Positions 543 to 61,451 of a stretch of 64,000 nucleotides of DNA are shown in pieces. The notes under the pieces are model-generated. The model saw nothing but the letters and a program-made list of their open reading frames with translations. It did not search any database and had not been told where the DNA came from. Position numbers and translations under genes: made by a program. Each line of letters starts with the position of its first letter. The stretch's first letter is position 1. Source of the stretch: Verrucomicrobiota bacterium (lineage in GTDB: Bacteria > Verrucomicrobiota > Kiritimatiellia > SS1-B-03-39 > UBA6053); the NCBI GenBank assembly GCA_020831635.1, contig JAFIGC010000009.1, forward strand, positions 1 through 64,000. Reading direction: 5' to 3'.

Positions 543-1502
543 ATGGACACGAAATCATTTGTAAAATTTTTCATTGTTGTGCCCGCCCTTTTTTGTGGGT
601 TCTGTCTGGCCGAAGCGGATTCGGTTGAGAAGGCTCCGGTAGAGGTCATGGTGGCCGGCGACCGCGTGAATTTGCGCACGGGCCCGGATTTGGACACCGA
701 CATTATCGGGCAGGTGGACTACGGGGACATGCTCGTTGCCGTGGAAATCGCTGAAAACTGGGTGCGCGTGCGTCCTCCCTCCGAATTGGTGTTTTGGGTG
801 CATGGCGGGTTGCTGTTTGAGGAACGCGAGGTGCGGGCCCGCACCTTGAACATCCGCTCCGGACCTGGCACGCAGTTCAGCGTGGTGGGTCAAATGGAGC
901 GCGGCGATCCCGTGACCGTTACCGGTGAGCACCAAGATTGGCGCAGCATTGAAACCCCGGATGCCGTCACCTTGTGGATCAGTCGGGATTTCGTGCAAGT
1001 GCAAGGGCCGCTGGAGGAGGCGCAGGCGCCCGAAGCGGAGCCCGAGCCCGAGCCTGAGCTAGAACCGGAGCCCGAGCCCGAGCCCGAGCCTGAACCGGAC
1101 CCCGAGCCCGTTCCCGAGCCCACGCCGATCACCGTTATTCAGGTCGAAACCGTGGAAAGGATCGTGGAAGTTCCCGTGTTGCCCACGCCCACGCCCACGG
1201 TCGAGCCTCCGCAAAATTTGGATCTGGTGCCGTTGTCGGGGCAGGGAACCGCATCGGTGCGACGCGGGACCGTCAAAGCCTACATGTTGGCCGGTTCCAG
1301 CCCCAGCCGCTTCCAATTGGTGCAGCGCGACCGGGGGGAAGAGATCCCCATTTGTTATTTGATCGGGGACGACGAGGAGTTGCGGGCGATGGCCGGGCGT
1401 TCCGTGGTGGTGCGCGGACGTGATTTTTGGGTGACCGGGCGCCGCCTGCCGGTCACGCGGGTGGAATCCCTGGAGCTGCAACAGAATTCGGGGACTGAAT
1501 GA
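543..1502 (+). CDS. Secreted protein with two bacterial SH3 domains and a Pro-Glu repeat linker
   Basis: The chosen start (543) gives a clean signal peptide (MDTKSFVKFFIVVPALFCG... ending near LAEA); an in-frame ATG at 522 would only add seven residues before it. Two SH3b-like domains follow, at about residues 33-95 and 96-155, each with the RxLNIRSGPG/RVNLRTGPD signature. Next come a low-complexity EPEPEP linker (about 160-195) and a C-terminal domain of about 80 residues that I do not recognise. Bacterial SH3 domains usually bind peptidoglycan peptides, so a periplasmic or envelope role is likely. The stop overlaps the ATG of the next gene by four bases, so the two are probably translationally coupled. 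Confidence 0.8.
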   Translation: MDTKSFVKFFIVVPALFCGFCLAEADSVEKAPVEVMVAGDRVNLRTGPDLDTDIIGQVDYGDMLVAVEIAENWVRVRPPSELVFWVHGGLLFEEREVRARTLNIRSGPGTQFSVVGQMERGDPVTVTGEHQDWRSIETPDAVTLWISRDFVQVQGPLEEAQAPEAEPEPEPELEPEPEPEPEPEPDPEPVPEPTPITVIQVETVERIVEVPVLPTPTPTVEPPQNLDLVPLSGQGTASVRRGTVKAYMLAGSSPSRFQLVQRDRGEEIPICYLIGDDEELRAMAGRSVVVRGRDFWVTGRRLPVTRVESLELQQNSGTE

Positions 1503-3097
1503 AGCGTCTGAAAGCCCTGTGTTTGACGCTTGCCCAGGCCCCCTTGTTTTGGCCGGCGTTTACAGGGGCCTTGGTGTTGTTGGGCCTCACGCGTTTGTTG
1601 CCCGGAATTTCGTGGGTTTTACCCCCCTCCGAGCAGGCGGTGCTGGATGTTGGGTATGTGCAAAATCTGCGTGGAAATTTTTCCGCGTACGAAGTGCTGG
1701 AGGGGGTCAAACAGGTCTATGGCGCCCATGTGTTGCCCCGGTATGCCTTGGCGGTGTTTTCCACCTTTACCGGGGACATTGCCCGGGCGGGGATTTGGCT
1801 GAGTCTTTTCGGGGTGGTGGCCACCGTGGGCGGGGTGTACACGCTCAGCCGCAGCATTTTTCCACTGCGCGAATTTGCGGCCGTGGTCACGCTTTCCCTT
1901 TCCGCCGTGGGTGCGATACAGTATGGCATTTCCCCGGACCCGTCCCGGGCCTTGGCCATGGCCTTGGTGGTCTGGGCTTTGGCCCTGTTTTTCACCGCGA
2001 TTGAAAAGGGGTTGCCCCATCGAGTGTTTCTTTCGGCCTTGTTGTTGGGGCTGGCCGGTTATATCCGCATCGAATTGACCATGATGTGGTGGCTGCTCTC
2101 CTTGTATTTGCTGGCCATGGCCGTTTGGAACAGTCCCGCAAAAGCCAAGGGGCTCCCTCTGGTGGGCATGGCCGTGGGCGGTCTGTTCATGATGGGGCTG
2201 GTGCTGTGGCCCCTGGTGGATCGCAACATTGGTTTGGCGGGGTCCCCGGTTTTGCCCGGCTTCGACGCCGAACTGATTTTGGGTGGCGTGGCCCATGTCG
2301 GCTCCGGCGCCGCTCCCGATTATTTCGGTCGCTTTTTCGACGGCTTTAAGATGTTGGCCACGGACCGCACCGGCCTCGGCATTTTCGCGGGGTTGCTTTG
2401 GCCCCTGGGGGTCGTCGTGTCCTCCGTGGTCAATCGTCACAAGGCCTTTCCTTTTTTCTGGGCCCCATTTATCATTGGATGGGTCTTGGCACTGACCTTG
2501 ATCAGTCCCGTGACCGGCCCCGAAAGTTTTTACGAATGTTTGCGGATCACCGCCCCGATTTTATACCCCTTCGCGGTGCTGGCCCCCGTTTTTCTCATGT
2601 ATCATTGGATGCAGACCGAGCCCAAGCCCAGGGGGAAAATCGTCAAACTTTGGTGCATGGTGGTTTTGGGTGCCTATGTCTTTGCCCTTTTGCCGAATCT
2701 CGCCGGGGGCACCGGACGCGAGGCGCGGCAAGCCAAACAATTCCAGGCCATTCTCGAGGTCTTTGAAGAAGACCGGGATTTGTTGGAAGGCAAGTTGTTG
2801 ACCGACCGGCCCGGGCTCTTCCTCGGGGTGGGCAAGCGGCATGTGTATGGTCTGAATGGGGAAACGGATTGGCGAATCATCGCCTACAAATATCAGGACG
2901 GCAGTTTTCGCATTGATGAATTCGTGAAGTTTATCCAGGAACAATCCATCGACTACCTGCATTTGTCCGAATATGACAACCCCCTGCGGGATCAATTGGC
3001 CATGGCGGAAAACGCCCCGGAATTCCGCGAAGTGGTGGTGTCCCCGCCGCATCGTTTGATGAAAATTTCTTGGTCCAACCCGCGGTCGTCGGAATAA
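1499..3097 (+). CDS. Polytopic membrane protein, glycosyltransferase-39-like
   Basis: This 532-residue protein has about ten hydrophobic segments in its first 400 residues. An early loop carries the sequence LDVGYVQNLRGNF, where PMT/ArnT-type (GT-C fold) enzymes usually have acidic catalytic residues, and a soluble C-terminal part of about 120 residues follows. The architecture fits a lipid-linked sugar transferase of the GT39/GT83 type, but I see no diagnostic motif. The start overlaps the SH3 gene (ATGA), and the Sua5 gene follows 20 bases downstream. The substrate is unknown. It could instead be a general DUF2723-type membrane protein. Confidence 0.55.
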   Translation: MKRLKALCLTLAQAPLFWPAFTGALVLLGLTRLLPGISWVLPPSEQAVLDVGYVQNLRGNFSAYEVLEGVKQVYGAHVLPRYALAVFSTFTGDIARAGIWLSLFGVVATVGGVYTLSRSIFPLREFAAVVTLSLSAVGAIQYGISPDPSRALAMALVVWALALFFTAIEKGLPHRVFLSALLLGLAGYIRIELTMMWWLLSLYLLAMAVWNSPAKAKGLPLVGMAVGGLFMMGLVLWPLVDRNIGLAGSPVLPGFDAELILGGVAHVGSGAAPDYFGRFFDGFKMLATDRTGLGIFAGLLWPLGVVVSSVVNRHKAFPFFWAPFIIGWVLALTLISPVTGPESFYECLRITAPILYPFAVLAPVFLMYHWMQTEPKPRGKIVKLWCMVVLGAYVFALLPNLAGGTGREARQAKQFQAILEVFEEDRDLLEGKLLTDRPGLFLGVGKRHVYGLNGETDWRIIAYKYQDGSFRIDEFVKFIQEQSIDYLHLSEYDNPLRDQLAMAENAPEFREVVVSPPHRLMKISWSNPRSSE

Positions 3098-3117: not shown

Positions 3118-4140
3118 ATGCGACATTGGAAACCCGCAAAGGATTATCTTGAACACGCCGCCGAAGCCTTGCGGCAGGGTCAACTGGTGGGCATGCCGAC
3201 GGAGACCGTGTATGGTCTGGCCGGCAATGCGCACAGCGCCGAGGTGGTGGCTTCGATTTTTTCCGCGAAGGGGCGTCCGACATTCGATCCGTTGATTGTG
3301 CATGCGTTGGACACGGAGGCGGCGTTTGCGATGGCCGCGGAAGTGCCGGAGGCCGCGCGTCAATTGGCGGAACGTTTTTGGCCGGGGCCGCTCACCTTGG
3401 TGCTTCCCCGCAAGCCGGACATGCCGGATTTATTGTCCGCCGGCTTGTCGACCATGGCCCTGCGGGTGCCCGCGCACCCCGTGGCCCGTCAGCTCTTGGC
3501 AACCTGCGGGCTTCCTTTGGCCGCCCCCAGCGCCAACCGCTTTGGACACATCAGCCCCACATGTGCGGAGCATGTGATCGAGGAACTGGGGGATGTCGAA
3601 CGCATTGCCGGGGTCTTGGATGCGGGCCCCTGTACCTTGGGCGTGGAATCCACGGTGGTGGGCTTCCCCGAGCCCGGGCGGATCGTGGTGTATCGTTTGG
3701 GCGGTTTGCCCCTGGAGGAATTGCGCGAGATGGTGGACGGCGTGGAATGGGTGGAAGTGCGGGACGCCGAGGACGATCCCGAACTCGCCAAACGCGGCGA
3801 GCAATCCCCAGGCATGTTGGCCCGGCATTATGCCCCCGGAAAACCTTTGCATCTCTTGTCGGCGGACGCCATGCCGCCGTCCGCGGAAGAACCCACCGGG
3901 TGGCTTTTGTATGATCATGGTCAGCGTGATCGGTTTTCCCATCTGTCGGGCCCCGTGGAGATCCTGTCGCCGGGGGGCAATTTGAACGAGGCGGCCACCC
4001 GCCTTTTTGCCTGCATGCGCAGTCTGGATGCCGCGAACATCCGGCGCATCGTCGCCTGGCGGGTCCCGGATGAAGGTCTGGGACGCGCCATCAACGACCG
4101 TTTGTCCCGCGCCGCGATTTCCACGGATGGTTTGGGATAA
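3118..4140 (+). CDS. L-threonylcarbamoyladenylate synthase (Sua5/TsaC)
   Basis: Makes threonylcarbamoyl-AMP from threonine, bicarbonate and ATP for t6A37 modification of ANN-decoding tRNAs. The YrdC-type core is clear: GMPTETVYGLAGNA near the N-terminus, KGRPTFDPLIVH, APSANRFGHISPT and LGVESTVVGF. A linker SPGMLARHYAPGKP leads into a C-terminal domain, so this is the long Sua5 form (340 aa) rather than the short TsaC form. I start it at 3118 (MRHWKPAKDYL), after the previous stop at 3097; an earlier ATG at 3070 would overlap the upstream gene. TsaB, TsaD and TsaE are not in the window. Confidence 0.93.
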   Translation: MRHWKPAKDYLEHAAEALRQGQLVGMPTETVYGLAGNAHSAEVVASIFSAKGRPTFDPLIVHALDTEAAFAMAAEVPEAARQLAERFWPGPLTLVLPRKPDMPDLLSAGLSTMALRVPAHPVARQLLATCGLPLAAPSANRFGHISPTCAEHVIEELGDVERIAGVLDAGPCTLGVESTVVGFPEPGRIVVYRLGGLPLEELREMVDGVEWVEVRDAEDDPELAKRGEQSPGMLARHYAPGKPLHLLSADAMPPSAEEPTGWLLYDHGQRDRFSHLSGPVEILSPGGNLNEAATRLFACMRSLDAANIRRIVAWRVPDEGLGRAINDRLSRAAISTDGLG

Positions 4141-4779
4141 ACGCGCCTAATCCCAATGCAGACTTCCGCCCGCAACTCAATCAACCACCCGCTCGCAAGC
4201 TCGCTGGAGCGCACGGAGGCCAGCATGACGGCAGGGTCCGCGTGGAGCCCCGGAACTCACCCCAAGATCCACGCGGCACCCTGCGGAGAAGCTCCGACAG
4301 CGGGGGGTTACGCGCCGGGAGCGCGCGCGGCTGCTGGATAGCGTTCGGATCTTCGGGGTGATTTCAGGGGCTCGCCGGACGGTATCCCACAACCCAAGCC
4401 TCCGTGAACCTCCTCCGTGATCTCCATGTCTCCGTGGTTGAACAACCGCAAATCATCCCCGATCCGAATCCACATCCTACATACACCCTGTCAAAAACCT
4501 GCGGATGCCAGGACACGGCCTGCGGATGCTCTGAAACCTACAAAGCATTCAAGCGAATAAAACCATTCTTTTGCCTTACATGAAAATGACATGCCATGCC
4601 GGAAGATCCGCAGGCCGTGTCTCGGCATCCGCAGGTCCCTTTGAATCATAACCATACTCACAATCAATCATCGAATGATGTGGAAATGGGGAGTTGCCCC
4701 CTGCGCCCCGTCGGTATTCGTTCGATGTTGGACGTTCGATGTTCGACGTTCGCTTGATAAACCGGGCGTTTTCGGGTAA
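4141..4779. repeat. 640-base intergenic stretch with repeat elements
   Basis: No gene is supportable. The left part is GC-rich. At 4395-4445 it has the CTCCGTGA/TCTCCGTGGTTGAAC wording common as dispersed repeats in Verrucomicrobiota. A long imperfect inverted repeat (4497-4525 and 4608-4636, 27 of 29 bases paired) encloses an AT-richer 82-base loop. At about 4718-4756 short GTTCGATGTTGGACG-type units repeat just ahead of menA. The promoter of menA must lie in the last part, but I cannot identify it. Confidence 0.6.
4497..4636. repeat. 29-base imperfect inverted repeat around an 82-base core
   Basis: The left arm at 4497-4525 begins ACCTGCGGATGCC and ends GGCCTGCGG. The right arm at 4608-4636 is its complement except for one swapped dinucleotide. 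Each arm also holds a repeated TGCGGATGC/GCATCCGCA word. Size and layout resemble a small non-autonomous palindromic element; no transposase or target duplication was recognised. Confidence 0.65.
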
Positions 4780-5712
4780 ATGCCAACCATGTCCGCATCT
4801 CAACCCTCCGCATCTCCGTCACAGTGGAAAATCTGGCTGGCCACCACCCGTCCAAAAACCCTGTTTGCCGCTTTGGCCCCCGTGCTGATGGGCGCCTCCA
4901 TGGCTTGGGAACGCGCGCGTGGATTGAATTACCCGATATTTTTGCTCACCCTCGCCACCGCCACCGCCATTCAAATTGGCACCAACTTTTGCAATGATGT
5001 CTTTGATCATCGTCAGGGCGCGGATACCGAAGCGAGGCAAGGCCCCCGGCGTGGACTGCAGTCCGGAATCATTTCCTTTCGGGCCATGGTCACGGCCACG
5101 GCGGGGACGTTTCTGTTGGCGGCGGGTCTGAGCGTGCTGTTGTTTTTGCACGGGGGCATGCCCATTTTCTGGATTGCAACCGCTTCGATCCTCAGCGGGG
5201 TATTTTACACCGCCGGACGGCGTTCCCTGGCCTACACGGGCATGGCTGACCTGTTTGTCATCGTTTTCTTTGGTCCGGTGGCCACGGCGGGTACCTATTA
5301 TTTGCAATTTCCCTACGCCTGGCCGCCCTGGGAAGTGCTCGTGGTGGGATTGGGGCCGGGGCTGATTGCCACGGCGCTGTTGACGGTCAACAACCTGCGC
5401 GACATCGACGAGGACCGGAGCAACCGCAAGCAAACCCTGGCCGTGCGTTTTGGCGCGGCCTTTGCGCGGGCGGAATACCGCGTCTGCCTCACTTTGGCCC
5501 TACTCCTTCCTCCTTGGATGGCGGTCATGACGGGCAGAAGCTGGACGGTGCTGCTCCTGTGGGTTATGTTTCCACAAGCCCTGAAGTTGATGAGACGGGT
5601 GCAGACCGGGACCAGTGGTCCCGAGTTGAACCCGGTGTTGGGGGCCACGGGCAAAATGCTGTTGAAATATGCCCTTCTGTTTTCCATCACTTGGCCTGCC
5701 GCCGGCGCTTGA
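4780..5712 (+). CDS. menA: 1,4-dihydroxy-2-naphthoate prenyltransferase (UbiA family)
   Basis: Attaches the polyprenyl chain to 1,4-dihydroxy-2-naphthoate in menaquinone synthesis, in the inner membrane. The protein (310 aa) has the family start KIWLATTRPKTLFAALAPV, the first Asp-rich motif NDVFDHRQGAD at about residue 70, the second NNLRDIDEDR at about residue 208, and eight or nine hydrophobic segments. An alternative ATG at 4789 removes three residues; neither start has a clear ribosome binding site. The stop overlaps the menC start by one base, which supports the menaquinone assignment over other UbiA enzymes. Confidence 0.92.
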   Translation: MPTMSASQPSASPSQWKIWLATTRPKTLFAALAPVLMGASMAWERARGLNYPIFLLTLATATAIQIGTNFCNDVFDHRQGADTEARQGPRRGLQSGIISFRAMVTATAGTFLLAAGLSVLLFLHGGMPIFWIATASILSGVFYTAGRRSLAYTGMADLFVIVFFGPVATAGTYYLQFPYAWPPWEVLVVGLGPGLIATALLTVNNLRDIDEDRSNRKQTLAVRFGAAFARAEYRVCLTLALLLPPWMAVMTGRSWTVLLLWVMFPQALKLMRRVQTGTSGPELNPVLGATGKMLLKYALLFSITWPAAGA

Positions 5713-53720: not shown

Positions 53721-54004
53721 TTCGGATTTTCATATCGACTTCCAAGGTCGATGATTACCCTCCTCCGAGGAGTATTTCAAAGCAGGCGTACAAAACATGG
53801 AGAACAATGGGATGATCAGGAATCAAAGCATACCTATGCTGGCTGTTGTGTATTCCAGACAATCCGTTTCAGCCCATGAGATAGTGCGTACTCAAAGAAA
53901 ATATCTCATGGATTCAGGAGTTAAAATAAGTCGTGATTAGATAAAAGTTTAAGGCTCATATGTTTTGACTTTACATATAGAACTTATCTTATAAAGAATT
54001 GACC
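53721..54004. other. Intergenic stretch before the TPR membrane protein
   Basis: After the pilin terminator no gene is visible. At 53873-53918 there is a further copy of the palindrome family: right arm ATATCTCATGGATTCAGG at 53901-53918 and a shortened left arm CCATGAGAT at 53874-53882. An AT-rich stretch just before 54005 is the likely promoter region of the next gene. Confidence 0.6.
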
Positions 54005-55867
54005 ATGGAGCGACCTCACAACGAATCCCATCAAATCTTGTTTTTGGCGAGTTCAGTATTTTTGATTTGGATGGTGACGTGGTTTATGTACCATCCGGTT
54101 GTGCACTTTGATTTCGTTTGGGATGACCACCAATTTGTGGTGGAGAATCCGTCTATACGGGATTTTCGGAATGTCCCCAGATATTTTTTCGATATCACCA
54201 CCATGTCCAAACCTTCCATGGGTAGAGAGTTTCAGGTGTTCCGACCCATCCGAAACATCAGCTACCTGTTCGACTTCCACCTCTTTGGGTTACATCCGCG
54301 AGGCTGGCATGTTCACAATCTGATCCTGCATGCTCTCAACGCGACACTGGTATTTTTGCTGGCGTTCACCCTGTTTGAGAGAAAAGACTGTAATGTGAGA
54401 AGGATTGCAGCACTGTTTTCGGGTTTGGTTTTTCTGCTTCACCCCTTGCAGACAGAAACGGTGGCCTGGGTAAAGAGCCGAGATGATTTGTTGGCTGTAT
54501 TGTTCGTTTTGTCCGGCTGTTTGGTTCTATCAAGACCTAACTTGGTGCGCTCAAAAAAGGGATGGGGGCTTTTGTTAATCTTCCACCTCTTGGCGTGTTT
54601 ATCTAAGGTACAGGCCATCCTGGTTCTTCCTGTGTTGGCCATGATTCCCCCTTCGGGCTCTTACTCGAAGGGGGAAGGTGTCAAACGCTCCGGTATGTTA
54701 TTGGTTGCCAGTTTGATCTATTTCGTGTGGCGCGCTGTGTTTTTGGGTCAAGTGGAGCAGACCACCCCTTTAGCGGAAAATCACGGACAGACTTTGTGGG
54801 TGATGGGGCAGGTCACACTGCAATACCTAGGATTGTTTGTCTTTCCCCGTGATCTTTTGGCGGACTACATACACATGTTGTCTGACCCCATGCCCTCCTT
54901 TGCAGTAGTGCTTGGCTCTTGGATCACACTGGGCATCTTGTTTGCCTGCATGGTCCTTGTAACGAGAATGAATCGTTCGTACCTTTACCCTTTTCTATTG
55001 GCGGGGGTCGCTTATGCGCCAGTTGCCAATCTGGTGCCCATGATGCAGTACATGGCGGAACGGTTTATGTATATGCCGATGGTCGCCTGGTCTTTATTGC
55101 TGGGGGTCATACTGTCAAATGTTCCAAAATTTTCCCACAAGACCTTTACCTGCATGGCTTGGACGCTAGCGGGCGGGTATCTCGTGATGTTGGGGTGGTT
55201 CACTACCCGGCGGTTGCCAGTTTGGGAAAATAATCTTACCTTGTTTCGGTCGGTTGTAGAGGATGCCCCGTCTCCCGCTTTCCGTCCTCGGAAGAATCTC
55301 TTGTCGGCTTACATCGATCAAGGTTATTTGGAAGAGGCGCAGGTTTTGCTTGAAGAGATCATGGAGCGGTTTGTGTCGGATGACTCCGTAAATTTGTCGG
55401 CACAAGCTGAGATCTGGCGGGCAAAGGCCATGTTAGCCACCCTGCGTCAAGACATGGAGTCCGGTGAGATTCTTGAATCTTTGCGTCAAGCGATTCAGTT
55501 GAATCCCACTTATGTGGAGGCGTATTCTGATTTAGGGGTGTTCCATGCAACTCGCGAAGAACACAACGAGGCATTGGATGCTTTTCAAAGAGCCTTGGAG
55601 CTTCGCCCCTTTCACGCAAACACCCTATACAATCGTGGGCTCATGTTTTTTAAAATGGGGCAACCCAAGCAGGGGGTGGATGATTTGCAGGCATCTCTGG
55701 AAGAAGGCCCCCGTTTGAAATGCTATCAAATTTTGGGCGCATATTATTGGAACCAAAACCAAATACGAGAGGCGGTTCGGATTTATCGGGAGGGCTTGGC
55801 CTTGTTTCCGGATGATCCGGTTCTTTTGCATTGGAGTCGTGCCGGAGCTCGTTTGCTTGGAGATTGA
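54005..55867 (+). CDS. Membrane glycosyltransferase-like protein with C-terminal TPR repeats
   Basis: A 620-residue protein. About ten transmembrane segments fill the first 390 residues, with the early-loop motif FVWDDHQFVVENPSIRDF, the DD/DE site of O-mannosyltransferase-like TMTC proteins, then RPIRNISYLFDFHLFGLHPRGWHVHNLILHALNA. The last 230 residues are tetratricopeptide repeats (YVEAYSDLGVFHATREEHNEALDAFQRAL; FHANTLYNRGLMFFKMGQPKQGVDDLQ). This architecture suggests transfer of sugar to exported proteins. The start is ATG 54005; a TTG two codons earlier is possible. It lies near pilin and secretion genes, so pilin glycosylation is conceivable but unproven. Confidence 0.72.
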   Translation: MERPHNESHQILFLASSVFLIWMVTWFMYHPVVHFDFVWDDHQFVVENPSIRDFRNVPRYFFDITTMSKPSMGREFQVFRPIRNISYLFDFHLFGLHPRGWHVHNLILHALNATLVFLLAFTLFERKDCNVRRIAALFSGLVFLLHPLQTETVAWVKSRDDLLAVLFVLSGCLVLSRPNLVRSKKGWGLLLIFHLLACLSKVQAILVLPVLAMIPPSGSYSKGEGVKRSGMLLVASLIYFVWRAVFLGQVEQTTPLAENHGQTLWVMGQVTLQYLGLFVFPRDLLADYIHMLSDPMPSFAVVLGSWITLGILFACMVLVTRMNRSYLYPFLLAGVAYAPVANLVPMMQYMAERFMYMPMVAWSLLLGVILSNVPKFSHKTFTCMAWTLAGGYLVMLGWFTTRRLPVWENNLTLFRSVVEDAPSPAFRPRKNLLSAYIDQGYLEEAQVLLEEIMERFVSDDSVNLSAQAEIWRAKAMLATLRQDMESGEILESLRQAIQLNPTYVEAYSDLGVFHATREEHNEALDAFQRALELRPFHANTLYNRGLMFFKMGQPKQGVDDLQASLEEGPRLKCYQILGAYYWNQNQIREAVRIYREGLALFPDDPVLLHWSRAGARLLGD

Positions 55868-57618: not shown

Positions 57619-58617
57619 TCATATATTTTCAGCTTTATTATCGAAAGTTGATTTTTTTAAGTTGTCGAATATGAAGTCTCGTAAACTTTTGTTGAATAGT
57701 TTTTTGGAAAAGAATGGAGCAATAGTCAGTACACTGAAGAATGTCACTACCCTGAGCAGCAAAGAGGCGGCTAACGCAGTGGGAATATCTATACCCACAG
57801 AGTAGGCAAGTGCGACAAGGATTCCTTCACTGGTGCCAAAGCCCGCTGGGGTTATGGCAATAAAACTGTTGACAATATTTATTGAACTAAAAAATAAGGC
57901 AACTAGCAAACTGATCTCTGCCCCAAAAGCACTAAACATAGAAAATAAAATTAGGGCAGATGTAAAGGTAAATACAATTGACCACATGATTAATAAACGA
58001 ATGTTGCACTTGCCTTTCCTAATTACCTGCCAACTTGTTAATATTTTCTTAAGCCTTTCATTGTGAATTCGCTTAGATAGTTTATCGGTTAATACCAGCA
58101 TTAGCAAAAGAAAAATGACCAAACAAGCAAGAATATAAAAAAATACCACTGGAATCACGGTCCCCAATATTTTGAGAATTAATATTGACAACAACCCAAT
58201 AAAAGATGAAATCAGAAACAACACTAATTGGCTTGCGGAAAATGAAGAGATGAAACCAGCATACGAAAGTCCATGTTTTTTATTCAGATAAACTGAGCGC
58301 ATAATAACACCAACTTTTCCTGGTAAAACTTGGTTCATGAGTCGCGTTAAATTTGCAAGACCAAATGACTCAATCAGGCTTAATCTAATTCCTAGCGACC
58401 TCACCGATAAATCCATTATTTGTCCAGTCGCAAAAATTCTTATGACCACTAATAAAAATAATAAACCAATAAAATAAAAGTTTGTGATTTCAAGTTTGGA
58501 AAATTCTTGAATATTTACAAAGATGTAACAAACAATTATCACAATAAATATTGATGACAAACAATAAGATAAAATCTTTTTGTGGTTCTTTCTCGCAGAG
58601 TAGATGCGTTTTATCAT
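57619..58617 (-). CDS. Lysylphosphatidylglycerol-synthase-TM-like flippase (UPF0104 type)
   Basis: A 332-residue protein with about eight transmembrane helices. Family-type stretches: ESFGLANLTRLMNQVLPGKVGVIMRSVYL, SFSASQLVLFLISSFIGLLS and FIAITPAGFGTSEGILVALAYSVGI. Members of this family move or modify lipid-linked molecules in the inner membrane, and inside glycan clusters they are often predicted flippases. Codon use is strongly AT-rich, unlike the main chromosome, which points to acquisition. It starts one base after the upstream glycosyltransferase gene. Confidence 0.75.
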   Translation of the reverse strand: MIKRIYSARKNHKKILSYCLSSIFIVIIVCYIFVNIQEFSKLEITNFYFIGLLFLLVVIRIFATGQIMDLSVRSLGIRLSLIESFGLANLTRLMNQVLPGKVGVIMRSVYLNKKHGLSYAGFISSFSASQLVLFLISSFIGLLSILILKILGTVIPVVFFYILACLVIFLLLMLVLTDKLSKRIHNERLKKILTSWQVIRKGKCNIRLLIMWSIVFTFTSALILFSMFSAFGAEISLLVALFFSSINIVNSFIAITPAGFGTSEGILVALAYSVGIDIPTALAASLLLRVVTFFSVLTIAPFFSKKLFNKSLRDFIFDNLKKSTFDNKAENI

Positions 58618-58618
58618 T

Positions 58619-59701
58619 TTATTTTCCTGCTTTTAAATAGAGGGATCTGTACGCTTTAAACATTTGAGTGAAGTTATTATTGTTAATAATTTTCTTTACA
58701 TCTGTGCGTTCTTCTGATGCTTCAAGGATTTTGTCTGCAAAACCGAACCAACCGTCGCTGGAAGGGATTATTTTCAGTAATGTAGAAACGTTTTTATCAA
58801 TGTCTATTAGGTCGCTAATTAGGGTTGGGGTTCCTAAACTTAACGACTCCATGATAATTAAAGGCGGGTGAAATTTATTCTCCATCTTTCTAGTAGGGAA
58901 AATGGTCAAGTCAGAGGCTTCTAAAAGCTCTATAATATTGTTGGTTTCGCCGACATTTACAACATTACATGGGAACATTTTGGCAAGTCTTTTACCAACA
59001 CCTAAATTGTCGAATCTACATGCTAAATATACTTTGCAACAGGGATCATTTTTGAAGATATGTGCAAGGCAATCTGCGAAATCCAGTCCTATTCCCATTC
59101 TCTCGAACTCGCCGGGAAACAAAACCATCCTTCCATCTACATTTAATTTCAATCTGGTGTTTTTTTTTCGAATTTCGTCGAATGCTACGCGCTGAGGTGA
59201 AGGCCAAGGGGTTATTAGTGAAACATGTTTTTTTGTTAGAAGGGACACACGTTTATATGCTGAAGATGTCTGACAAACAACAAAGTCTCCCCAAAGTAGT
59301 TCGTGAAGATTTTTGTCGTCTAGGTTTGGAAGCCCAGTGATAGTCTGTATAAATTTAACACCATTTTTTCTGGCTCTGCGTGTTACCGCTTTTAAAATAA
59401 TAGAATTTTTGACGGTCGGTATATGCGCTGTGTGAACAACATCATATTTGCCAGAGTGATTATATATACCAATTGGGTATTGAAATTTCGATATGTTCCT
59501 CCAGCCAATTGAACTAAAGGCTTTTACTTTATTTGGTTTGTTCATGTGCTCGTCAATTAGTGAAAATACACTAGTTTCAATAAGATTTTGGTGAACTAAA
59601 CTCTTTGCTAAATCTGAAAGTAATACAAAACCCCCTTCTGTCAGTGGAGATTCCGCGGCTCTGGACGCCAGCAATAGCTTGATGCTGCTTTCTTTATTCA
59701 T
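58619..59701 (-). CDS. GT4-like glycosyltransferase of the AT-rich island
   Basis: A 360-residue GT-B-like protein. N-terminal LLLASRAAESPLTEGGFVLLSDLAKSLV resembles acceptor domains with a GG loop. The C-terminal half has VLFPGEFERMGIGLDFADCL, VNVGETNNIIELLEASDLTIFPT and an EX7E-like IIMESLSLGTPTLIS. It probably adds a sugar to a surface polysaccharide. It overlaps the upstream unknown gene by four bases and is followed one base later by the flippase-like gene, a tight AT-rich operon of three. Confidence 0.78.
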   Translation of the reverse strand: MNKESSIKLLLASRAAESPLTEGGFVLLSDLAKSLVHQNLIETSVFSLIDEHMNKPNKVKAFSSIGWRNISKFQYPIGIYNHSGKYDVVHTAHIPTVKNSIILKAVTRRARKNGVKFIQTITGLPNLDDKNLHELLWGDFVVCQTSSAYKRVSLLTKKHVSLITPWPSPQRVAFDEIRKKNTRLKLNVDGRMVLFPGEFERMGIGLDFADCLAHIFKNDPCCKVYLACRFDNLGVGKRLAKMFPCNVVNVGETNNIIELLEASDLTIFPTRKMENKFHPPLIIMESLSLGTPTLISDLIDIDKNVSTLLKIIPSSDGWFGFADKILEASEERTDVKKIINNNNFTQMFKAYRSLYLKAGK

Positions 59702-60924
59702 TTTGCAAACTTTTTTATTGCTGATGAAGTTATTCTTTTGAATTTAGTAATGTAGTGTTTGCTTTTTGATTTCGCGTATTTAAAATGGTTTCTTATTGGA
59801 GGCATTGAGACCTTCTGATATTTAACATTCCCTTTTTTGCATTTGTTTATATTTCGAATATTTACATATACTGATTTATCTTGAGGTTGAGTCAACGAGT
59901 AGCTTTGTCTCTGTAAATATGCAATTAACATGGCTAAAGGTTTGTCTGTTTCAAAATCTTCTACATTTAATTCATTTCCAGTTTCTTTCGACATCTTTGA
60001 TAGTTTGTTTTTATAATCATCACATATTGATGGTTTGTGAATTAGCGCATGGTAAAGCAGGCTGTGATATAAATCATTCTGTTCGGGAATGAAAAAACCA
60101 TTAATGTGCATTTGTCTATTCTCTAGAATGTCAATCTCCCATTTCTCATCATAGTATCTGTCGCCAACCGTTCTAAAGTCAAATTTCAAATGTTCACCTG
60201 CAACTATAATTTCATTGTGCACCCTGTTTTTTGACCTAAAAATTTTATTTGAGTTCGTGATAAAGCACATTTCATGATAGTTGGTGGTTAATAAGTCTAT
60301 ATCGCCATGATCATCAGAGCGATAATTTTCAGGTAAATAATCGAAATTTCTTAAAACAACATACTGAATCGTAGAGTTTAAAACATAAAATAGTTGGTTT
60401 AAGCTCTTCCATCCATTATGGCCCACTAAGTTTTTATTATATTTCTCGAAATATGGTTTCGTGCAATTTTTATTTTCTGTAGCAAAATCGTTTGAGTTTT
60501 TGCCAAAAAGAAGTGTCAAGTTATGATTTGCTTCAGCCACATCATTGCTGCCATGTATTCGATGCCCTCCACCAGACCATTCTCTGTGCATTGTCTTAGA
60601 GGTAAACATTTTAGTGTTAACCAATTTCCCCCCTTTGCTTGTTATGTGCTCTTGATATGCTGGTTCATTATCTTCAACGACTATAGCCAGAAAAGGCCCG
60701 ATGCCGCAATGCTTTTCTTTATGGGAGTTTTTTGGAAGATTTGTACCGTAAAATCTAGACAAGTTCTTGCTGAAATGTTCTTTGCTCCAATGAATCTCAT
60801 ATTTTTTTATTATACTGAATTTTGCTGCGATATCTTCTACTATTTTTAATTCATACTTTCTGGCATTGTGCCAAATAATAAATAGATGCAACTCAGATTT
60901 TTTGATTGAATTCATGGAGAACAT
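59698..60924 (-). CDS. Unassigned protein with a GDIDLL nucleotidyltransferase-like motif
   Basis: A 408-residue soluble protein with no signal peptide. The first half (LHLFIIWHNARKYELKIVEDIA; MHREWSGGGHRIHGSNDVAEANHNLTLLFGK) is a distinct domain that I recall only from uncharacterised proteins in polysaccharide clusters. The second half has QYVVLRNFDYLPENYRSDDHGDIDLLTTN, where GDIDLL is like the metal-binding motif of LicD/fukutin-type or other nucleotidyltransferase-fold enzymes. The C-terminus is Lys-rich. It may transfer a phospho- or nucleotide-activated group to a glycan. First gene of the AT-rich operon; an alternative start is 60915. Confidence 0.6.
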   Translation of the reverse strand: MFSMNSIKKSELHLFIIWHNARKYELKIVEDIAAKFSIIKKYEIHWSKEHFSKNLSRFYGTNLPKNSHKEKHCGIGPFLAIVVEDNEPAYQEHITSKGGKLVNTKMFTSKTMHREWSGGGHRIHGSNDVAEANHNLTLLFGKNSNDFATENKNCTKPYFEKYNKNLVGHNGWKSLNQLFYVLNSTIQYVVLRNFDYLPENYRSDDHGDIDLLTTNYHEMCFITNSNKIFRSKNRVHNEIIVAGEHLKFDFRTVGDRYYDEKWEIDILENRQMHINGFFIPEQNDLYHSLLYHALIHKPSICDDYKNKLSKMSKETGNELNVEDFETDKPLAMLIAYLQRQSYSLTQPQDKSVYVNIRNINKCKKGNVKYQKVSMPPIRNHFKYAKSKSKHYITKFKRITSSAIKKFAK

Positions 60925-61451
60925 TGATTTTACATGAGGATTTATATTTCTGATGTTTCTTATCGTGCGTTTTTTAGTGATTGATGATGGGGGTATTTGG
61001 GTTTTGTAGTTTCAATAGATTATGTTTTTTGGAAAGTGGGTGATTTAATCAAATAATGAATAAATGGGGAGAAAAAGTCAAGTAAAAACTTCCAATATGT
61101 CTATTCACTTTTCTTTTGTACAGGCCTCCGTGTGGAATTTCATGAGCTTGAACATTTTCCTCACCATCGTACCTTGACCTTAAATCACTTATGACTTTAT
61201 AAACATCTTATATTCATGATGTAAATGTTCTGACTCTGTCTAAATTGGGACATTATCCGGATTCGGTTTCGTGTTGACTCCTCGTTTTGTTGCACTAAAC
61301 TCTTTATGGTTTCATGTAACTGGTGTTTGAAGCCCTCTTACCCTCTAATTACGCTGCACCTTTCATTCCCCTGTATAGGACGATTATACTGATAATTATC
61401 TCGATCTATGATGAACCAACCTTACAAACTGATTGTTCGCAAAAGAATAGC
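60925..61451. other. AT-rich gene-free stretch between divergent operons
   Basis: About 530 bases of low GC with no credible gene, RNA or obvious repeat. It separates the AT-rich minus-strand operon from a GC-richer plus-strand glycosyltransferase. It must contain the promoters of both, but I cannot identify them with confidence. Confidence 0.5.

Follow-up and report, generated by a model that had tools for sequence, protein, structure and literature searches.

Nucleoside diphosphate kinase (NDK) is among the best-known housekeeping enzymes, and LicD and FKRP are phospho-alcohol transferases. WbdD and Klebsiella O7 ORF6 use kinase and methyltransferase modules to cap O-antigens with methyl phosphate (PMC3482155, PMC11231755). 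A literature search for a glycan protein combining NDK and nucleotidyltransferase modules yielded no description, most subscription papers lying outside its scope, and a term search of a survey of ParB folds met no mention of NDK or nucleotidyltransferase (PMC12704722). The protein analysed here, A-B, is encoded in a 64,000-nucleotide stretch of DNA from a Verrucomicrobiota bacterium, hereafter the window, and its two halves are referred to as modules A and B.

The operon and its genomic setting

The locus comprises the following features:

57619-61322, no strand assigned: low-GC island holding the operon, with a GC content of 33-37% against a window mean of 56%
59698-60924, minus strand: A-B protein, first gene of the operon (408 aa, ATG start, stop included)
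58619-59701, minus strand: glycosyltransferase-like gene, overlapping the A-B ORF by 4 nt (PF13692, E 4.1e-4, below the cut-off)
57619-58617, minus strand: gene for a flippase-like membrane protein (PF03706, E 6.2e-22; TIGR00374, E 3.6e-13)

The three genes are tightly packed and form an operon that begins with A-B, followed by the glycosyltransferase-like and the flippase-like gene. The initial annotation had placed an ORF at 59698-60924 within a glycan operon, and both statements hold: the ORF is present at exactly these coordinates, and the next two downstream genes encode the weakly matched glycosyltransferase and the flippase-like protein. It had also described the product as a two-domain protein, in agreement with the predicted structure, in which two folded domains (A, residues 8-156; B, residues 158-376) were modelled with high confidence (full-length mean pLDDT 89.4, pTM 0.85). 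The protein shows modules A and B only, plus a low-confidence tail from residue 378.

As a single query, the window protein retrieved nothing in the first scans of genome contigs and viral contigs, and the full protein matched no entry of Pfam, NCBIfam, PHROGs or the PDB sequences at E<=1. Searches by tblastn were likewise negative for the window protein against phages and plasmids, for the A-B protein of locus L083 against plasmids and for the A protein of L104 against phages. A profile scan of genome contigs detected Saccharibacteria homologues with 50% identity over query residues 2-376, and an alignment of 28 proteins, the window protein among them, contained 20 invariant columns. On the strength of these homologues and invariant columns, the sequence comparisons identify the A-B ORF as a gene and no chance ORF. 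Only scattered weak names were returned when the 28 members were searched against NCBIfam, and these were taken as noise.

The nearest relatives found for the three-gene operon belong to Saccharibacteria. The glycosyltransferase-like gene of the window is 45-46% identical to the gene that follows A-B in Saccharibacteria L080/L081, which itself matches PF13692 above the cut-off, and the flippase-like gene is 47-48% identical to its counterpart there. When a GT2 gene near the window end is included with these two, matches in L080/L081 span 44-48%. In the tree of A domains, the nearest neighbour of the window domain is that of Saccharibacteria L080 (62% over 147 columns, support 99). Together, the low GC content, the nearest A domain and the three neighbour-gene matches in L080/L081 indicate a putative horizontal transfer of the window operon. 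Promoter- and terminator-like sites were no more numerous than in shuffled sequence, and the repeats found were only short, imperfect pairs. At 53999-55867, the same region also codes for a protein of 622 aa in which a hydrophobic part precedes TPR repeats.

Folds and conserved sites of modules A and B

Within the A-B gene, the modules and their conserved sites map as follows:

60457-60903, minus strand: module A, NDK-like domain (residues 8-156; VIA-align and weak PF00334)
60583-60597, minus strand: Lys110 to Arg114, a pair on the helix preceding His124, invariant in 76/76 A domains
60553-60555, minus strand: His124 of HGSN, at the position of the NDK catalytic His118, in 76/76 A domains
59797-60453, minus strand: module B, nucleotidyltransferase-like (residues 158-376; own model pLDDT 93.9; VIA-align)
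60289-60306, minus strand: GDIDLL with Asp208 and Asp210, both in 59/59 aligned B modules
60151-60180, minus strand: Asp249 to Tyr258 (DFRTVGDRYY), with a possible third catalytic Asp; Asp249 is found in 59/59 B modules, an invariance to be discounted, as this stretch served as search pattern for the 59-locus scan

The N-terminal half, left unnamed by the initial annotation, is according to the structural model a domain with the NDK fold. VIA-align superposed it on NDK 4s0m with Z 12.0 (125 aligned residues, 2.6 A, spanning residues 8-154), and 48 of the best 50 rows were titled NDK, NM23 or NME; the other two were radial-spoke chains, one of which carries the name NDK 6 in the PDB sequence profile matches. 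Foldseek returned NDKs mixed with axonemal and radial-spoke chains, with 7 of 580 matches at E<=0.001. With a module A profile, eight PDB sequences were matched at E<=10 (the best at 0.014), and the molecule names of six include "nucleoside diphosphate kinase". PF00334 matched 4 of 16 module A members (best E 9.3e-4), and the window module scored 14.9 bits (E 0.025), below the gathering score of 27 bits. The comparison with four NDK sequences by hhalign gave E values of 0.002-0.003, yet a probability of only 4-14%; the latter being low, the NDK assignment relies on structure comparison and profile matches.

Conservation was assessed in 76 distinct A domains (31 A-B, 21 without B, 17 B-A and 7 from a tentative group, P-A), which represent the available loci and not every matching genome, four fragments with fewer than 100 aligned residues having been removed. 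NDK residues are referred to as His118, Lys12, Tyr52, Arg105, Asn115 and Glu129. His124 aligned with the NDK catalytic His both in the PDB profile alignment and in the hhalign alignment, and His124, Arg114 and Lys110 stayed invariant (69/69) when the tentative P-A group was removed. The counterpart of NDK Arg105 differs between alignments, being Arg114 in the PDB profile alignment and Lys110 in that of hhalign. Glu131 is kept in 72 domains. At the position of NDK Lys12 (KPD motif), both alignments place W18 of the window protein; of the 76 domains, 59 have Trp here and 17 have Arg. The Tyr52 position (Tyr59 in the window) shows the same split, with 59 Tyr and 17 Arg. Residues 18 and 59 covary, with Trp/Tyr in 59 domains and Arg/Arg in all 17 B-A proteins. 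The position 11 residues after the His, which corresponds to NDK Glu129 if no gap is assumed, holds Glu in 1, Asp in 35 and other residues in 40 domains, including Asn in the window, and that of Asn115 is His in 19/31 A-B and Asn in 14/17 B-A domains. Thus, since the Lys12 and Glu129 positions are changed while fold and His stay, module A as judged from its aligned residues keeps the NDK fold and the His without the full NDK active site.

For the C-terminal half, the initial annotation had proposed a nucleotidyltransferase-like fold with a likely metal-binding GDIDLL motif preceded by YVVLRNFDYLP. Both motifs lie in that order (residues 188-198 and 207-212), the two Asp proved conserved in all 59 aligned B modules, and the fold was borne out at moderate scores, the best VIA-align rows being MenT1 (Z 8.8, 148 aligned, 3.6 A) and ANT(2'')-Ia (Z 8.4). 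Neither an unrelated fold nor variable Asp residues, either of which would have refuted the proposal, were thus observed. MenT3, TM1012, LnuA and other nucleotidyltransferases were also among the top rows, with an AbiEi antitoxin (row 27), FKRP (Z 5.2 over 118 residues) and pol beta (4.8) further down. Identity to MenT and ANT chains was about 5-12% in the listed rows, and Foldseek by itself gave weak matches (best E 0.024). PF14907 (NTP_transf_5), an uncharacterised nucleotidyltransferase family, matched 8 of 59 B members weakly (best 6e-4) and gave no match for the window sequence.

The 59 aligned B modules, from which the fragmentary or partial loci L136-L139 had been excluded beforehand, share invariant R192, D208, D210, H292 and K297, and both GDIDLL Asp are also invariant across 17 B-A rows. 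Asp249 is invariant in 17 A-B rows, window included, that came from an independent genome search, and may be a third catalytic Asp of module B. The DxD motif suggests that this module binds metal. In 56/59 B modules, an LRN-type stretch stands where standard nucleotidyltransferases have hG[GS], and the 17 B-A rows have LRW, LRG or LRY in its place; by eye, at least L076 has a G[GS] (LRGS).

Distribution and partners of the two modules

When 387 genomes from the phylum were searched by tblastn, 18 had matches, including the window's own and two weak ones (L017 and L018, with stops). These matches revealed that A and B are separable: they follow each other as A-B or B-A and also combine with other partners. 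Profile searches in 345 genomes of the class, the window genome included, found A in 54 and B in 33, at least one of the latter (G270, L078) reading by eye as an integrase and probably being a chance match; of ten further listed members of the genus and family to which the window belongs, none had module A. A scan of genome contigs with the A-B alignment yielded 59 loci. Hosts of A-B include Saccharibacteria, Gammaproteobacteria, Caldimonas, Anaerolineae, Rickettsiales, Clostridia, Oribacterium, Vibrio, Saprospiraceae, Billgrantia, Sumerlaeota and many Kiritimatiellae, and B without A occurs mainly in Lachnospiraceae/Clostridia and Bacteroidales.

Module-bearing ORFs were also seen in viral records. 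In L139, an ORF (3612-5672, open at its end) joins a GT2-like part to A and B and sits, as read by eye, downstream of portal, protease and capsid genes. In L140 (4929-5951) and L141 (4965-6017), B is fused to a domain recognised by the kinase profile, and module A profile A1 had no match in these two records.

In the tree of 76 A domains, built by a quick method with long branches and a midpoint root, the B-A, A-K and P-A groups each form one branch (SH-aLRT 99, 98 and 99), and seven changes are needed to explain six architecture labels. A and B are fused as A-B or B-A, and are encoded by separate genes in the order A, kinase, B in L104 (Lachnospiraceae). L002 and L006 carry a fused kinase-like part (Pfam Pkinase, RIO1, Kdo or APH), L082 and L089 an adjoining one, and Pfam backs the kinase identity for these four and for L104. 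A small kinase profile located such a part within or next to A-B at 11 of the 27 named A-B loci; seven of these matches arise by construction, as the profile was built partly from proteins that it then matched; the independent matches are L088, L093, L094 and L095. The same profile had no match at the other 16 named loci, and no kinase gene was recognised beside the window copy.

Methyltransferase signals accompany A-B in several loci. Such a signal follows A-B within one ORF in L083 (below Pfam cut-offs) and more weakly in L086, and in L092 a methyltransferase match lies in the adjacent gene, together with a weak APH-like match. In L087, A-B stands between a gene for Wzt with Wzt_C and a SAM synthetase gene (by eye), followed by a methyltransferase gene. 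When the parts after A-B in L086 and L090 were searched with phmmer, WbdD was not among the matches and L090 gave a weak methyltransferase match (E 0.0073). A or B is also fused to glycosyltransferase domains, and in L008 A is joined to a polysaccharide deacetylase. Pfam confirmed glycosyltransferase and polysaccharide-flippase neighbours for ten selected proteins from six loci. In L044, L046 and L048, A is joined to a hydrophobic part that by eye is probably a multi-span membrane domain.

At 8 of 9 Bacteroidales loci, the gene directly after B carries a diverged, tentative A in its C-terminal part; seven of these matches are by construction, since the P-A profile was built from seven of the eight loci matched. 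By eye, this gene also shows a ParB/sulfiredoxin-like DGxHR part; it had no Pfam match in the two cases tested. The assignment of A in this P-A group, which lies on a very long branch of the tree, is tentative: used by itself with a limit of E<=0.001, profile A1 detects no A in the genomes of L123 and L129, the larger A profile contains L129, and two weaker candidates (L108, L128) fall below the cut-off.

Other proteins were noted around B. A conserved protein, often with an MSNPAV start and a DGQHR-like motif, lies near standalone B in Lachnospiraceae/Clostridia (L107, L111-L114, L117, L124, L131, L132 and L134), and a three-sequence profile found it at 10 of 21 standalone-B loci, three of them by construction. 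In L124, a LicD-like gene (by eye) immediately precedes B. A B-like domain is followed by a P-loop thymidylate-kinase-like part in L017 (1540-2808; PF02223, E 8.4e-6, below the cut-off) and, by eye, in L077 (1420-2799).

Possible functions and comparison with known systems

A glycan-decorating role for A-B is plausible from its context. More specifically, A-B could be a two-active-site enzyme of surface-glycan phosphate decoration, a reading to which we give somewhat less than an even chance. Module B, with its DxD and probably a third Asp, would move a nucleotidyl or phospho-substituent, supplied by an activated donor, onto a glycan hydroxyl or its precursor. Module A, whose pocket is altered at the Lys12 and Glu129 positions and has invariant His, Arg and Lys, would pass a phosphoryl group carried on His124 to a partner substrate other than plain NDP. 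Both modules, often with a kinase-like third part, would thus introduce a phosphate-containing decoration or a chain-end cap before glycan export. The two folds, the conserved sites, the repeated fusions and the glycan-cluster context are computed; we infer the activity of both sites, the phospho-His step and the phosphate product. Phosphate chemistry on an exported glycan is the most economical reading, because in some hosts A-B lies next to or inside similar kinase and methyltransferase modules and both the His and the DxD are kept. Several observations count against it: A also occurs with a deacetylase and with likely membrane parts, for which no phosphate step is needed; B lacks hG[GS] and has moderate fold scores; and no kinase gene was recognised beside the window copy, nor by the kinase profile at the 16 loci mentioned above. 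In addition, since the Lys12 position is changed in every A domain and that of Glu129 is Glu in only one, phosphoryl transfer by A may be altered or lost. If so, B could be the only catalytic module and A a non-catalytic domain that binds nucleotides or glycans or oligomerises. The very different partners of A, including deacetylase and likely membrane domains, are consistent with this explanation, which we nevertheless hold to be unlikely, given that His, Arg and Lys are kept in 76/76 domains over four architecture groups and binding alone need not require them.

The NDK fold and the conserved His position would also suit a working NDK that regenerates NTPs (e.g., CTP or UTP) locally for B and the neighbouring glycosyltransferases, and 35 of the 76 A domains have an Asp, akin to Glu, at the Glu129 position. 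No PF00334 gene was found in 6 of 14 genomes checked, namely those of Oribacterium, two other Lachnospiraceae, a Clostridia, a Prevotellaceae and a 1.3-Mb Rickettsiales, which may normally be NDK-free or incomplete. However, the Lys12 position is never Lys, a housekeeping NDK is present in the other eight genomes, including 7 of the 11 in which profile A1 finds module A, and the window genome has an NDK-like gene of its own, so that NTP regeneration appears fairly improbable. The latter gene (L079, contig C183, ORF 1315-2514, minus strand) encodes a separate 399-aa protein below the Pfam cut-off. Most PF00334 matches in the class fall in frames some 390-460 aa long over which the profile is spread in several pieces, as against a 159-aa frame in G291. 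The idea that module A generally replaces a missing host NDK was dropped because of the window genome's own long NDK-like gene and the standard NDK in 8/14 others. A further scheme, in which A is a glycan or lipid phosphotransferase and B a LicD/FKRP-like phospho-alcohol transferase using a CDP donor, both acting sequentially on one chain, draws on the presence of FKRP in the B fold list and of the LicD-like gene before B in L124; it is quite improbable, FKRP being ranked well below the MenT and ANT folds and the LicD/FKRP motifs not being seen in B. Finally, the pair could be a toxin-antitoxin or defence element with a MenT-like tRNA nucleotidyltransferase, as MenT1 and MenT3 rank with the folds closest to B; this explanation is extremely improbable, since glycosyltransferases and flippases make up the neighbours examined, kinase-like domains are among the fusion partners of B, and the identity of B to MenT/ANT chains is low.

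Returning to phosphate decoration, a broader version, which we regard as doubtful, would describe a glycan-phosphate machine in which an NDK fold with a rebuilt pocket, acting through a phospho-His, feeds a nucleotidyltransferase-like domain together with a kinase-like or ParB/sulfiredoxin-like partner, the parts being reshuffled and swapped between phyla. These parts are spread over Kiritimatiellae, Saccharibacteria, Proteobacteria, Clostridia, Bacteroidales (diverged) and at least one phage-like record. A widespread NDK branch with the His kept, the Lys12 position changed and repeated fusions to nucleotidyltransferase-like and kinase-like domains in surface-glycan clusters would represent a new use of the NDK fold. 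Profiles A1 and A2 recognise proteins that, among the members tested, have no confident Pfam or NCBIfam name, and they point to H124 and D208/D210 as the sites on which the mechanism can be decided.

Both folds are known. None of the libraries searched has a name for this branch of the NDK fold, for its altered pocket or for its shuffled fusions to B and to kinase-like parts. Module A resembles NDK (PF00334) in its fold, its HGS(D/N)-like catalytic-His stretch, the predominance of Tyr at the Tyr52 position (59/76) and, close to the position of Arg105, an invariant basic residue. It differs in having Trp or Arg for Lys12, a Glu129 position that is Glu in 1/76 and mostly His for Asn115 in A-B proteins, as well as in being fused into glycan proteins, and the window A falls below the Pfam cut-off. 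Module B shares fold and DxD with pol-beta-like nucleotidyltransferases (MenT1, ANT(2'')-Ia, TM1012, PF14907), which in turn have hG[GS] where B has an LRN-type stretch; B also carries invariant DxR..GD.YY and H....K and has low identity to them. With LicD/FKRP, module B has in common a nucleotidyltransferase-like fold acting on glycans, FKRP appearing in its fold list, but the fold rank is low and the motifs are different. A terminator of the WbdD type unites kinase, methyltransferase and coiled coil in one protein, whereas kinase and methyltransferase are both absent from the window protein, and the descriptions of WbdD and O7 ORF6 consulted (PMC3482155, PMC11231755) contain no NDK-like or nucleotidyltransferase-like module. 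Nevertheless, they are modular glycan enzymes like A-B, which is fused to or encoded beside methyltransferase parts in L083, L086, L092 and L087.
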